A program made the position numbers and the translations under genes. This document shows, in pieces, positions 1-11,492 of a stretch of DNA of 33,239 bases. Numbering within the stretch: position 1 is the first letter of the stretch; each line of letters begins with the position of its first letter. The stretch lies in NCBI RefSeq assembly GCF_000337175.1, contig NZ_AOIJ01000053.1:1-33239 (forward strand), in the 5' to 3' direction. This DNA is from Natrinema gari JCM 14663 (GTDB lineage Archaea > Halobacteriota > Halobacteria > Halobacteriales > Natrialbaceae). The notes beneath the pieces are model-generated. The model was not told the origin of the DNA. It searched no databases and worked only from the letters and a program-made list of their open reading frames with translations.

Positions 1-20
1 GAGATGTGTATAAGAGACAG
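1..20. other. Tn5/Nextera mosaic-end adapter (artefact)
   Basis: Bases 2-20 are the 19-bp Tn5 mosaic end used in tagmentation libraries. It is not genomic. An ORF reading through it begins with the peptide MCIRDR, a familiar artefact in protein databases. Real sequence starts at base 21. Confidence 0.97.
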
Positions 21-197
21 GCCTCGAACCACATCCACGAGGCGTAGCCGTTCGGACGGACGGCCCCTCTCGGCGTCGGTCCGGCGGCTGGTCGGAGTCG
101 AGAGTGTGGGCCGACAGCGCTTGTCGAGTCGCTCAGTCGCTCGGAAAATCGGTCTCGCTCGGAGAAGTGCGGCGTTCGGTCAGAAGAGCGCGCGACG

Positions 198-250
198 CCC
201 GCGAGCGACTACGCTTGCTCGCGGGTCACTGTGTTCCCGCTCGCGTAGTC
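198..250. repeat. Overlapping, mutually exclusive inverted repeats
   Basis: CCCGCGAGC (198-206) pairs perfectly with GCTCGCGGG (217-225). GACTACGC (207-214) pairs with GCGTAGTC (243-250). The two stems share the region around 207-225, so only one can form at a time. They lie just beyond the stop codon of the sulfurtransferase at 281, so a terminator or 3'-end processing element is possible. The rest of 21-280 holds no supportable gene. Confidence 0.5.
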
Positions 251-280
251 ACCCAGCTTCGTCCTGCCCAGGCGCTCGCG

Positions 281-1147
281 TTAGTCGTCGGCGCTGCCAG
301 TCTCGATCGGTGCACTGACGAGATTGCCCCACTCGGTCCAGGACCCGTCGTAGTTGACGGCGTCCTCGTAGCCGAGCAGTTCGTGGAGCGCGAACCACGC
401 GACCGAGGAGCGCTCGCCGATGCGGCAGTAGGCGACGGTCGTCTCGTCGCCGGTGATGCCCTCCTCGGCGTAGAGGTCCTCGAGTTCCGCGCGGTCCTTG
501 AACGTGCCGTCGGCGTTGGTCACGGCCGCCCAGGAGATGTTCTTCGCGCCGGGGATGTGGCCGCCGCGCTGGGCGGTCTCTTGCAGGCCGGAGGGCGCGA
601 GGATCTCGCCGGAGAACTCCTCGGGCGAGCGAACGTCGACCAGCGGGACGCCACGCTCGATCGCGTTTTCGACGTCCTCTCGGTAGGCGCGGATGCTCTC
701 GCGCGGCCCGGCGGCGTCGTACTCGGTCGCCGAGAAGTCGGGCTCTTCGTCCGTGGTCGGATAGTCGTTCTCGAGCCAGTATTCGCGGCCGCCGTCGAGC
801 AGGTACACCTCGTCGTGACCGTAGTATTTGAACTGCCAGTAGGTGTAGGCGGCGAACCAGTTTGAGTTGTCACCGTAGAGGACGACCGTATCGTCCTCGC
901 TGATGCCGTGGCTGCCGAGGAGGTCCTCGAAGTCCGCCTTCTCGAGGATGTCGCGCTGTGTCTGGTCCTGCAGTTGGGTTTCCCAGTTGAATCCGATCGC
1001 GCCGGGCGCGTGTTCGTCTTCGTAGGCTTCCGTGTCGACGTCGACTTCGACCAGTCGGTGGTCGGAATCGTCGTCCTGGAAGTCGTCAAGTCGGTCAGCG
1101 ACCCAGTCGGCCGTGACGAGTACGTCGTTGGCGTAGTCGGTTGCCAT
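281..1147 (-). CDS. Thiosulfate/3-mercaptopyruvate sulfurtransferase (tandem rhodanese)
   Basis: The 288-residue protein has two rhodanese domains, about residues 8-135 (inactive) and 150-283 (catalytic). The active-site loop is C241-R-I-G-E-R-S-S, the classic CRxGxR(S) persulfide loop, preceded by the typical HIPGAKNI segment near residue 197. Such enzymes move sulfane sulfur from thiosulfate or mercaptopyruvate to cyanide or thiol acceptors in the cytoplasm. The ATG at 1147 was chosen over an in-frame ATG at 1174. It gives the family N-terminus (MATDYANDVLVTADWVADRL) and sits just downstream of a TATA-like element at 1181-1190. It is divergent from a second sulfurtransferase. The exact sulfur donor cannot be read from the sequence. 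Confidence 0.93.
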   Translation of the reverse strand: MATDYANDVLVTADWVADRLDDFQDDDSDHRLVEVDVDTEAYEDEHAPGAIGFNWETQLQDQTQRDILEKADFEDLLGSHGISEDDTVVLYGDNSNWFAAYTYWQFKYYGHDEVYLLDGGREYWLENDYPTTDEEPDFSATEYDAAGPRESIRAYREDVENAIERGVPLVDVRSPEEFSGEILAPSGLQETAQRGGHIPGAKNISWAAVTNADGTFKDRAELEDLYAEEGITGDETTVAYCRIGERSSVAWFALHELLGYEDAVNYDGSWTEWGNLVSAPIETGSADD

Positions 1148-5270: not shown

Positions 5271-6206
5271 CTACTGGGCCGGCGTCGCGTCGTCCTCGCG
5301 GACCGCCATCGGTGGGAGGTCGTCGACGAGAACCACCGCACTGCCGTCGAGAACGACGGTTCCGTCGCCGTCGGTCACGGTCGTCTCGATCCGGTACTTC
5401 GCGTGGCCGAGGTCCTCGACGATCTCGCACACGGCGGTCGCGTCCGCCCCGATCGAGAGCGGTGCGCGGAAGCTACTCTCCTGTGAGAGATAGATCGTCA
5501 GTCCCGGGAGCCGGGCGAGGGCCGCGCTGATCAGCCCGGTCGCGAGGACGCCGTGCACGATTCGCTCCCCGAAACGGGTCTCGGCCGCGTAGGCCGCGTC
5601 GAGATGCACCCGGTTCGTATCGCCCGTCACTTCCGCGAAGGCCTCGACCTCGGCGTCGGAGATCGTTTTCGAGAACCGGGCGATGTCGCCCACCGAGACG
5701 GTCGTCTCGTCCGCACCGTGGTATTCGAACGTCCAGTCGTCTCGCTCGTAGAGGGTGTCGGTCCGCACCCGCTGTCGAGGCGGCTGCTCGCGCGTGTCCG
5801 TGGCGCGGCGGACGAGCTGGGGCACGTAGTAGGAGAGTTCGATCGTCGTGACGATCCCCACCAGCTCGGTCGCGTCGTCGTCGCCCGAGACGACCGGTAA
5901 GTGTTCGATGTCCGTCGTGCGACACCGCTCGACGGCGTCGACGATCGAGGCGGTCGCTTCGATCGTCGTCAGCGGCGTCGACATGATCTCACGGAGCTCG
6001 AGCCCGCCGAGGTCCGTCCGGTCACAGAGGTGCGCGACGAAATCACCCTCGGTGACGATGCCGACCGGTTCGCCGTCCCGGACGACGACCACGGAACTGA
6101 CGCCCTCGTCGCACACCAGCGTCGCCGCCTCGGTCGCTGTTGCGTCGGGCGAAGCGGTGACGACGTCCTCGAGCATGACCTCCGCGATGGGTATCGTGTC
6201 GTGCAT
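5271..6206 (-). CDS. CBS-pair / MaoC-like hot-dog dehydratase fusion
   Basis: The 311-residue protein joins two families. Residues 5-130 form a CBS pair (AEVMLEDVVTASPDATATEA, then REIMSTPLTTIEATASIVDA), which in other proteins binds adenosyl ligands. Residues 165-298 form a MaoC/R-hydratase domain with the catalytic pattern D196-TNRV-H201, followed by FGERIVHGVLATGLISAAL, as in (R)-specific enoyl-CoA hydratases (D-x4-H). The most direct inference is a 3-hydroxyacyl-CoA dehydratase or hydratase whose activity is sensed or gated by adenine nucleotides. Residues 131-165 are the linker. A TATA-like element at 6229-6234 would give a leaderless mRNA. The substrate is unknown and no fatty-acid or PHA genes are nearby. 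Confidence 0.9.
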   Translation of the reverse strand: MHDTIPIAEVMLEDVVTASPDATATEAATLVCDEGVSSVVVVRDGEPVGIVTEGDFVAHLCDRTDLGGLELREIMSTPLTTIEATASIVDAVERCRTTDIEHLPVVSGDDDATELVGIVTTIELSYYVPQLVRRATDTREQPPRQRVRTDTLYERDDWTFEYHGADETTVSVGDIARFSKTISDAEVEAFAEVTGDTNRVHLDAAYAAETRFGERIVHGVLATGLISAALARLPGLTIYLSQESSFRAPLSIGADATAVCEIVEDLGHAKYRIETTVTDGDGTVVLDGSAVVLVDDLPPMAVREDDATPAQ

Positions 6207-8092: not shown

Positions 8093-8167
8093 GGGCACGT
8101 AGCTCAGTCCGGAAAGAGCGTCGGACTTCTAATCCGACGGTCGTGGGTTCAAATCCCATCGTGCCCG
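8093..8167 (+). tRNA. tRNA-Arg (anticodon TCT)
   Basis: A full cloverleaf is visible. The acceptor GGGCACG (8093-8099) pairs with CGTGCCC (8160-8166) and the discriminator is G8167. The D stem is GCTC/GAGC (8102-8105, 8116-8119). The anticodon stem is TCGGA/TCCGA around loop CTTCTAA with anticodon TCT at 8128-8130. The T arm is GTGGG-TTCAAAT-CCCAT. It decodes AGA. No intron is present and the 3' CCA is not encoded, so it is added after transcription, as is common in archaea. Confidence 0.97.
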
Positions 8168-8369: not shown

Positions 8370-11300
8370 ATGGTCTCGTTTCGAGCCAGCGGTGAGAGCG
8401 GTATCGATCGTCGAGCGTTCGTCTCGTTGCTCGGGACGACGACGGGTGCGTTCGCGCTGTCCCAGTCGTCCGACGCGTTCACGACTACTGACTCGGCCTC
8501 CGGCGACGGGCTCGAGTCCCTTTCGTTTTACTCGACGGCGTCACAGGTGAGCGCGACGTATGCGCCGCTCACCGACGCGGAACACGTCGTCGCGTGGGCG
8601 TCCGAGAACGCGTCCGTGACGAGGACGGACGACGGAACGGACGACGCCGACGTCGTCTCCTACGAGACTGCGCGCATCCCGCTGATCTCGCAGGACGGAC
8701 GCGTGATGGGGATCGGCAGCGCCGGCTTTCTCAGTGACGAGCGCGGCGGCTTCACTGCCGGCAACGAGGAGTTCATCCTGAATGCCTGGGATCAACTGCT
8801 GGGGCCGGGGAGTACGGTGCTGTGGGACGAGAGCCACGACCAGTATTGGGACCTCTCGAGGCACGAGACCTTCCGGCGCTACGCCGACGATAACGGCTAC
8901 GACCTCCGAGCGCTCGCGGCGTTCGACTCCGACGGGACGACGCTCGAATTCTATTCGACGGCGAGTCAGATCGCAGCCGATGGCGGCGTACTGACCGAGG
9001 CGCATCTGGCCGCGGACGACGATCTCGAGGTTCTGGCGTGGGCGGAGTCGACGGCGACGAACGGGGATCAAACCGGGTCCGACGCCGTCGAGTACGGCGA
9101 CGACGAGCGGATTCCGCTGATCACCCGCGACGATCGGGTGGTCGGGTTCGGTGCGCCCCTCGTCGAGGACGATAGCGATCATGAGGAGAATCGGGCGTTC
9201 GTGCGGGGCGTCTGGGATGCGGTGATCGACGGCGAAACCGTCTACTGGGACGAGAGCCACGACCAGTACTACGATACCGACCGGTTCGAGACGTTCATCG
9301 CCGCCGCCGAGAGCGACGGCTACACCGTCACCGCCGCCGACGATCTACTGGCGGTTCTCGAGGGCGCGAGCGACGGCGCGGCCGACACGACGGCTCCCGA
9401 CGCCGATGCAGTCGTGATCACGACGCCTGCAGCGGCGGTTACCGACGCCGAACTCGCGGCCCTCGAGTCGTTCGTCGCCGACGGCGGGACCGTCTTGCTC
9501 CACGACCAGTCCGATTACGACGGCCACGACGAAACGGGGGCCCTCAACGAGATCGCCAAGCGGCTCGACCTCGGGTTCAGATTCAACGCGGATCAGGTCG
9601 CCGACGACGCGTCGGGCCGGGACGAGCACGTGTTCACGACGGCGGCCGTCGACGAGACGTATCTCGCGGCCGAGTCGGGGTCGGTCGGGGTGGCGGACGC
9701 CGACGGACTCGTGATCACGACACCCCAGTCGGCGTTCGACGAGTCGGAGCTCGCGGTCCTCGAGTCGTTCGTCGCCGACGGGGGCGCGCTGTTCCTGTTC
9801 GATCAGTCGGACTTCGGCGGGAACGATCGAACGGGGACTCTGAACGAGATCGCCGAGCGACTCGATCTCGCCTTCCGGTTTAACGGGGGGCAGGTCGAAG
9901 ACGAGGTCTGTAACGCCGGCCCGGCCTACGAGCCGGTCGCGACGGAGTTTTCGCCCGCGTTCGAGTACGCCGACGCACGGCCCGGGATCGGGATCGAGTT
10001 CGATCGCGACGGGGAGTACGACGGCCGGATCACTCGCGTGGTCGACGGTGACACCGTCGAGGTCGAATTCGACACCGAGTACGGCCACCGCGAAATCGTT
10101 CGCAACGTCGGCGTCGATACCCCGGAGACGCCGCCGACGGAGGCCAGCCCCAGGGAGTGGGTCGGCGTTCCCGACGATGCGACCGCTCACCTCCACGACT
10201 GGGGCGAGCGCGCGGCGGCGGTCGCCCTCGAGCGGCTGGCACCCGACGGCGCGGCGGTCGACGAGGGCGACCTCGAGGGTCGCCACGTCAAACTCACCTT
10301 CGACGAGGCGGAGCCGATACGCGGGCACTACGGGCGACTGCTGGGGTATCTCCACTACGATCCCGACGATTTCACGGCCGACTTCGATGCCGGCTCGTTC
10401 ACCGTGAACTACAACCGGCGGCTCGTCGCGGACGGGTATGCTCGCGTCTACTCGTCGGGCTTTGCGGCCCACGACGAGTTCGCCGCGCTCGAGGAGGATG
10501 CCCTCGCAGCGGGCCGGGGCGTCTGGTCGGTAGCCGATGTCGACGCGCGCACCGCCATTCGCAACGAGCCCGTCGAGGACCTCTTCGTGCCGTCGGCCCG
10601 GAGCATTCGCAGCGCTCGGGGCCGGTCCGGCGGTCGTGTTCGGGACGAGCGGGTCGCCGTGTCGGCGTCCCCGAGCGCCGAGCAGCGCCTCGAGGGCGAT
10701 GGCGTCGCGTACGACGACGACGTTCCGCTGGTCGGCGTCGACGAACGGCGGCGGGTCGCGCTCGTCGGCGGGCTGCTGATCGACGAACGCTACGAGGCGG
10801 ACGAGGGCTTCGGCGCGGACACGAGCGGCTACGGCAATTTCCCGTTCCTGACGAACCTGATCGATTACCTCTCCGAGACCGACGGCGACGTGATACTCGC
10901 CGGCGGACAGGGCCAGTTCAACGCCGCGGGCTCGCTCTCCCTCGAGGACTGTAAGTACTACCGCCGGTACCTCGAGGGGGTCGACGAACGACTCCGCCAA
11001 ATAAACGATCTCGAGCGGACGCTGCCCGACGAATCGGAGCCGCCGCGTGCCGTCTTGCTCTCCGCACCCGCGCACGAACTCCCGGTCGGCGACCGCCTCG
11101 CGTTGCGCGAGTATCGGAACGCGGGCGGCGCGGTCGTCTTGTTGGGCAGCGCGGCGGCCGACGCCGATCACACGCGACACCTGAATCGACTCGCCGCCCG
11201 GCTCGGGACGGCCCTCCGGTTCAACGCGGACCGGATCGTCGATACGGACCGGAACCTCGCAGACGATCCCGCGATCCTCGAGACGCGCGCGCTTAATAAC

Positions 11301-11492
11301 TCCTTGCCGCTGTTTGACGCCTACGAGCCGTCGACCCGGACGGACGAGCCCGACGCGGCACCTGGAAACAGCGGTCACGCCGGAGGCCACCGCGGCAACG
11401 GGCCCGGCAATAGCGGCCATACAACGGGCCACGGCGGTAGCCCGCTGGGCAACAGCGGCCACGCACCCGGTCATCGCGGTAGCGGGAAATAG
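8370..11492 (+). CDS. Tat-exported modular protein with thermonuclease (SNase) domain
   Basis: This 1040-residue protein starts with a Tat signal (DRRAFVSLLGTTTGAFAL, residues 13-30). Module A is duplicated at about 48-185 and 191-327 (FYSTASQ, RIPLI, WDESHDQY). Module B (ITTP, ALESFVADGG, LNEIAxRLDL, FRFN) occurs at 347-410, 446-509 and in diverged form at 894-956. A staphylococcal-nuclease-like domain at about 549-722 has DGDT (559-562), R578, VDTPE with D583 and E586, and HYGR with R656. These match the Ca-binding and catalytic Asp, Arg, Glu and Arg residues of micrococcal nuclease, so it should cleave DNA or RNA outside the cell. The tail is His-rich (999-1040). Modules A and B resemble GldG/DUF4350-type sugar-binding or amidotransferase-like folds, but their role is unknown. 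Confidence 0.88.
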   Translation: MVSFRASGESGIDRRAFVSLLGTTTGAFALSQSSDAFTTTDSASGDGLESLSFYSTASQVSATYAPLTDAEHVVAWASENASVTRTDDGTDDADVVSYETARIPLISQDGRVMGIGSAGFLSDERGGFTAGNEEFILNAWDQLLGPGSTVLWDESHDQYWDLSRHETFRRYADDNGYDLRALAAFDSDGTTLEFYSTASQIAADGGVLTEAHLAADDDLEVLAWAESTATNGDQTGSDAVEYGDDERIPLITRDDRVVGFGAPLVEDDSDHEENRAFVRGVWDAVIDGETVYWDESHDQYYDTDRFETFIAAAESDGYTVTAADDLLAVLEGASDGAADTTAPDADAVVITTPAAAVTDAELAALESFVADGGTVLLHDQSDYDGHDETGALNEIAKRLDLGFRFNADQVADDASGRDEHVFTTAAVDETYLAAESGSVGVADADGLVITTPQSAFDESELAVLESFVADGGALFLFDQSDFGGNDRTGTLNEIAERLDLAFRFNGGQVEDEVCNAGPAYEPVATEFSPAFEYADARPGIGIEFDRDGEYDGRITRVVDGDTVEVEFDTEYGHREIVRNVGVDTPETPPTEASPREWVGVPDDATAHLHDWGERAAAVALERLAPDGAAVDEGDLEGRHVKLTFDEAEPIRGHYGRLLGYLHYDPDDFTADFDAGSFTVNYNRRLVADGYARVYSSGFAAHDEFAALEEDALAAGRGVWSVADVDARTAIRNEPVEDLFVPSARSIRSARGRSGGRVRDERVAVSASPSAEQRLEGDGVAYDDDVPLVGVDERRRVALVGGLLIDERYEADEGFGADTSGYGNFPFLTNLIDYLSETDGDVILAGGQGQFNAAGSLSLEDCKYYRRYLEGVDERLRQINDLERTLPDESEPPRAVLLSAPAHELPVGDRLALREYRNAGGAVVLLGSAAADADHTRHLNRLAARLGTALRFNADRIVDTDRNLADDPAILETRALNNSLPLFDAYEPSTRTDEPDAAPGNSGHAGGHRGNGPGNSGHTTGHGGSPLGNSGHAPGHRGSGK
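11364..11489 (+). repeat. Three 42-bp units encoding GNSGHxxGHxG repeats
   Basis: Units at 11364-11405, 11406-11447 and 11448-11489 each encode 14 residues with the pattern GNSGHxxGHxG, and the stop codon follows the last unit directly. Each unit holds one HxxxH pair (H1003/H1007, H1017/H1021, H1031/H1035). A metal-binding or polymer-binding tail is possible. Confidence 0.85.

Follow-up and report, generated by a model that had tools for sequence, protein, structure and literature searches.

The protein encoded by the ORF at 8370..11492 (+, start ATG, 1040 aa) of the Natrinema gari JCM 14663 DNA analysed here (33,239 nucleotides, henceforth the window) is, with a probability that we put at about 0.78, a Tat-exported SNase-type nuclease that acts on extracellular DNA and carries three GIFT/DUF4350-type units, two of them nested one inside the other. 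Taken together with its relatives, it suggests that in haloarchaeal surface nucleases this unit is probably recursively self-inserting, with a preferred acceptor loop and a resulting A^nB^n order (n = 1–3), and that inner units are gained or lost in place while nested cassettes recombine, including on plasmids.

The chain begins with a Tat-type (twin-arginine) signal region (residues 1–45, RR at 14–15, 8370..8504, sequence MVSFRASGESGIDRRAFVSLLGTTTGAFAL), followed by A1 (48–190, 8511..8939, 144 bits with our A model), A2 (191–338, 8940..9383, 137 bits), B1 (340–441 including a tail segment, 9387..9692, 98 bits with the B model), B2 (442–545, 9693..10004, 101 bits), the SNase (thermonuclease) domain (547–724, 10008..10541, PF00565), A3 (740–888, 10587..11033), B3 (889–1000, 11034..11369) and a Gly/His/Asn-rich tail of PGNSGHxxGHxGN repeats (1001–1040, 11370..11489), all on the + strand. 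We read A1 and B2 as the N- and C-terminal halves of an outer unit, A2 and B1 as those of an inner unit, and A3 and B3 as those of a third, divergent one. The copies are homologous, A1 and A2 being 40% identical (E 8e-28), B1 and B2 66% (E 2e-31) and B3 and B1 36% (E 8e-10), and the PGNSG core of the tail is kept in orthologues. The nearest named relatives, from N. altunense and N. pallidum (Natrinema), share 90–91% identity with the whole protein, and a phmmer search of the whole protein against PDB sequences gave no match. The order given in the original prediction (Tat signal, A, A, B, B, thermonuclease, linker, B', His-rich tail) was confirmed by the profiles and Pfam as far as its repeats and domains go. 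The "linker" (about 724–885) is instead a divergent third A, with residues 745–882 scoring 130 bits against the A model, and a third A-B unit is thus complete at the C-terminus; B' was rightly seen as a B-type copy (B3, 80 bits over 893–976), but it is not a lone one, as it completes this third unit. No match to the A and B profiles was found in 200 shuffled sequences.

Two Pfam families exceed their cut-offs in the repeat region, namely DUF4350 (47.3 bits against 30.4, best stretch 313–417) and ABC_transp_aux, the GldG family (47.5 bits against 34.7, residues 442–479), with matches spread across A2-B1 and B2. IFT52_GIFT (PF23355) reached 26.8 bits on the window protein, just under its cut-off of 27.2, and scored 40.7 on a relative (L044). 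Structure prediction of A and B had been proposed as a check, and the AlphaFold models give a GIFT-type fold for A2+B1 that agrees with a solved GIFT domain: the core of A2+B1 matches that of IFT52 (5fms) with Z 8.4 (137 aligned, 2.6 Å; Z 7.7 in the first model). Structurally, A2+B1 comes closest to the IMPa O-glycopeptidase (5kdv), whose N-terminal domain aligns with it as one contiguous stretch (Z 12.5, 181 aligned, 3.4 Å), and the first model returned it as well (Z 12.4, ~181 residues, 3.3–3.4 Å). This first model covered residues 40–1000 with 13 close rows, and only its GIFT part was used, the SNase region having a pLDDT <50. Since the contiguous A2+B1 match appears in two AlphaFold models, A and B together make up, as modelled, one GIFT/DUF4350-type alpha/beta unit, A being its N-terminal and B its C-terminal part, and the earlier reading of them as separate modules gives way to a single domain, in line with the Pfam and fold matches. 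A search of a viral structure library gave no match at E <= 0.001. Sugar binding is proposed for GIFT domains in general (PMC7226087), and IMPa is a glycoprotein-directed enzyme; the units may act as glycan-binding or surface-spacer modules.

The nuclease domain is matched by PF00565 over residues 577–720 (31.3 bits, cut-off 21). R578, D583, E586 and R656, which had been named as the equivalents of Arg35, Asp40, Glu43 and Arg87, are exactly as stated; the chain also has D561 and T584 as Asp21 and Thr41 equivalents (all equivalences of catalytic and metal residues were set by motif). An alignment of 100 SNase domains from the family shows no variation at D561, R578, D583, E586 and R656, and T584 is a threonine in 98 of them. 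The thermonuclease with intact catalytic residues thus finds support at the level of sequence, and its predicted activity is that of a Ca2+-dependent nuclease. It is the sole SNase of its genome. SNase genes are patchy across the genus, with none in 17 of 29 genomes; some of the genomes carry a short stand-alone SNase (315–327 aa), and one (G015) has both kinds.

Export was likewise part of the original prediction. The window protein displays a twin-arginine motif, IDRRAFVSLLGTTTGAFAL, at residues 12–30, which makes it a predicted Tat substrate by motif, and R14, R15 and F17 are invariant in 9 orthologues. Of 118 family proteins, 95 have an RR-hydrophobic motif ahead of their first domain, as judged by a simple pattern. 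The conserved signal makes export by the Tat route the expected fate of the protein.

The role of the enzyme can be approached through a characterized relative. In Haloferax volcanii, deletion and complementation established that growth with DNA as a source of phosphorus depends on the SNase lipoprotein HVO_1477 (PMC3929857). By analogy, a secreted nuclease acting on extracellular DNA (eDNA) is the most likely role for the window protein: it would be a folded, Tat-exported and presumably Ca2+-dependent nuclease that degrades extracellular DNA, chiefly for phosphate recovery or eDNA remodelling. Extracellular DNA use, biofilm turnover and defence had previously all been left open; of these, DNA use now appears the best supported by this analogy and defence has gained little.

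Turnover of biofilm eDNA, or an EcnA-like processing of DNA for uptake, rather than feeding, is a possible if somewhat doubtful role. EcnA (NF047969) is the top NCBIfam model for the window protein (77.9 bits over 549–721), and the sugar binding proposed for GIFT domains in other systems (PMC7226087) would suit retention in a matrix, but the score lies well below the equivalog cut-off of 180 bits and no competence gene was noticed among the neighbours scanned. It is unlikely that the nuclease works in defence or competition, by cutting the DNA of viruses or competitors outside the cell, instead of providing nutrition. A PADLOC candidate model, 'SNc+LTD', did give a weak match (29 bits, E 1e-7, 36 residues), and several relatives are plasmid-borne. 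The PADLOC match is however confined to the generic SNase core, no adjacent immunity or defence gene was seen, and the neighbours in the window are a tRNA-Arg and metabolic genes: a tRNA-Arg(TCT) lies upstream (8093–8167), and the downstream genes are a FAD-dependent (thioredoxin reductase-like), a glyoxalase-like and an alpha/beta hydrolase gene. Phage records returned a single weak SNase-only match, in an Archaeoglobus provirus. Elsewhere in the window, 5271–6206 (-) encodes an unusual-looking fusion of a CBS-domain pair to a MaoC-like dehydratase domain.

A search for the architecture in other haloarchaea, also suggested at the outset, recovered a family of about 110 homologues, from which profiles for A, B and the two SNase halves were built; matches were found in 108 of 391 sampled genomes of the class and 45 of 125 of the family. 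Ahead of the SNase domain, 64 proteins have AB (n=1), 13 have AABB (n=2, the window protein included) and 12 have AAABBB (n=3), of which 6 are plain and 6 carry in addition a beta-rich domain that we call X. In 11 further proteins A+B lies within the SNase domain, and in 1 of the family (L035) ABAB is found there. Once A copies split by an insert had been rejoined, the proteins sorted by copy number were balanced, at 236 copies of A and 236 of B. For the A-A-B-B order the best reading is one domain enclosed by a copy of itself, A1-[A2-B1]-B2, and the former description as a nuclease inserted among repeats is better replaced by nested self-insertion.

Several members of the family depart from the simple pattern. 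The A+B insertion site within SNase corresponds to about residues 598–603 of the window protein (L038, L039, L079, L080, L154, L155, L158 and others), and in L035 the two units stand there in tandem. The only clearly unbalanced member, L054, has apparently lost, in frame, the stretch between the middle of A2 and the middle of B1, and retains half an A plus a partial B. In several proteins of the n=3 group, domain X (about 120–150 aa, no match in Pfam) sits by or within A copies, close to the acceptor loop, and some other proteins carry it behind their C-terminal unit; examples are residues 336–495 of L095, 323–485 of L103, 661–817 of L109 and about 396–513 of L034. The reading frame of L059/L091 (genome G104) is broken between A3 and B1, by decay or sequencing error. 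Annotations in the family include "PKD domain-containing protein". Weak matches to the GIFT unit also occur in a distant family of the same phylum, outside the class (G507, G523, G614 and G657); one of these matches lies in an open frame of 2000 residues.

Could A and B instead be independent small domains, multiplied separately in tandem and with no nesting, so that their equal counts reflect coincidence or a stoichiometric demand? A1 lies next to A2 and B1 next to B2, tandem duplication does occur elsewhere in the family (L035), and the tree of n=2 and n=3 B copies is poorly resolved, with B1 and B2 of n=2 mapping poorly onto B2 and B3 of n=3. Against this, A2 and B1 jointly match one known domain, the counts are balanced at n=1, 2 and 3 with one exception, each step would require two coordinated events, and A and B are swapped or lost as nested pairs in the natural cases described below (L103/L106 and L109). 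We therefore hold separate multiplication to be quite improbable.

Nested self-insertion makes sense of two natural experiments. The first is L103, an intact CDS (WP_253438362.1) on a complete plasmid of Natronosalvus halobius, which is a mosaic recombinant. Its A1 (66–69% identity), B3 (64–69%), SNase (83–85%) and C-terminal unit (78–83%) are nearest to an n=1 group (L065/L067/L134), while its A2, A3, B1 and B2 are nearest to proteins of the n=3 group, chiefly L009 and L109 (66–80%). Along the chain, identity switches at about residues 121–200 (in A1) and 840–880 (in the last B), so that a balanced inner A-A-B-B block sits between the A and the B of an n=1-type protein. Its sister L106, on a plasmid of Natronosalvus rutilus, agrees with this pattern; the L106 reading frame is broken inside SNase, by decay or sequencing error. 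The second is L109, which falls in the n=3 clade and lacks A3 and B1 jointly, with domain X in their place. Both patterns fit a nested pairing, in which the first A belongs with the last B, and neither fits a crossed one. The AU tests used single modules of 84–136 residues and were weak and mostly not significant: for B3 of L103/L106, a single module, grouping with n=3 was not rejected (p 0.53), and for A1 it was rejected with the n=2 rows included (p 0.008) and not without them (p 0.41). The module-by-module best matches and the mosaic identity profile are clearer than these tests, on which the case for nesting does not depend. At the locus level, most n=2 orthologues checked are flanked by the neighbours of the window gene and the n=3 gene L009 has its downstream neighbours, which indicates that nesting depth changed in place.

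A crossed pairing, i.e. two interleaved copies with A1 belonging to B1 and A2 to B2, is very improbable: MAFFT did place B1 and B2 of n=3 on B1 and B2 of n=2, but the n=1-like pieces of L103 are A1 and the last B, L109 is missing its last A and first B, and the contiguous domain in both AlphaFold models is A2-B1. The alignment joining n=2 with n=3 proteins was left out of the modelling, since this MAFFT pairing of B copies might have biased the outcome.

For the nested pairing, the outer unit was examined in an AlphaFold model of A1-B2 (residues 45–543, 499 aa), which has a pLDDT of 86.3 (about 90 over most of A1) and a pTM of 0.70. In the underlying alignment the n=1 relatives were placed on the inner unit, so A1 was not forced onto B2. 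In a fold search some chains matching the fold type of the inner unit gave further alignments: one spans 13..498 of the model with 158 residues aligned and another 80..491 with about 95, the ranges giving only the first and last aligned residue and the Z scores being middling (5.1–5.5). Such alignments must skip most of the inner unit, which lends support, though not proof, to the predicted three-dimensional pairing of A1 with B2.

The window protein would accordingly be built of two N-terminal GIFT units nested as A1-[A2-B1]-B2, with a third unit, A3-B3, C-terminal of the nuclease. A whole unit would have been inserted into another copy, at the loop that leads from the second core strand to the third and joins A to B. 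In relatives, this loop region would likewise have received a third GIFT unit or domain X, and in others a loop of the SNase has received a GIFT unit.

Domain insertion is usually viewed as a single frozen event, and self-insertion is a rarely seen route of protein growth. If our reading is true, these nucleases offer a natural series for nested-domain evolution and folding, with one domain family at nesting depths of 1, 2 and 3 in related haloarchaea, one of the comparisons being between genes at the same locus. Together with a natural transplant and the natural loss of an inner pair, this opens the question of how nested domains are gained, lost and folded to direct tests. Through this work a widespread group of haloarchaeal nucleases also acquires a domain identity, and it points to a second candidate route to eDNA use beside HVO_1477.

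HVO_1477 resembles the window protein in being a haloarchaeal surface SNase-type nuclease and differs in being a predicted lipoprotein of 327 aa with a thermonuclease domain, whereas no lipobox is evident in the window protein, which carries three GIFT units. EcnA is the best NCBIfam likeness of our SNase domain, although its model covers the nuclease only and the window score is far under the equivalog level. The GIFT domains of IFT52, GldG and Wbp1 and the N-terminal domain of IMPa share a Pfam family or fold with the window units, but none of the cases found is fused to SNase or self-nested. In a literature search we found no report of GIFT self-insertion and no paper on an SNase-GIFT fusion, an absence that is no proof. 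Recursive self-insertion as such is known: HABAS domains are inserted in one another at several levels in Si3 of the cyanobacterial RNA polymerase beta' subunit (PMC11515920, PMC13114784), and there, too, a family has been inserted repeatedly into its own copies. HABAS is however a small motif in an essential intracellular enzyme, while the GIFT unit is an alpha/beta unit of roughly 240 residues in an exported accessory enzyme and is found with n=1, 2 and 3 across related species.
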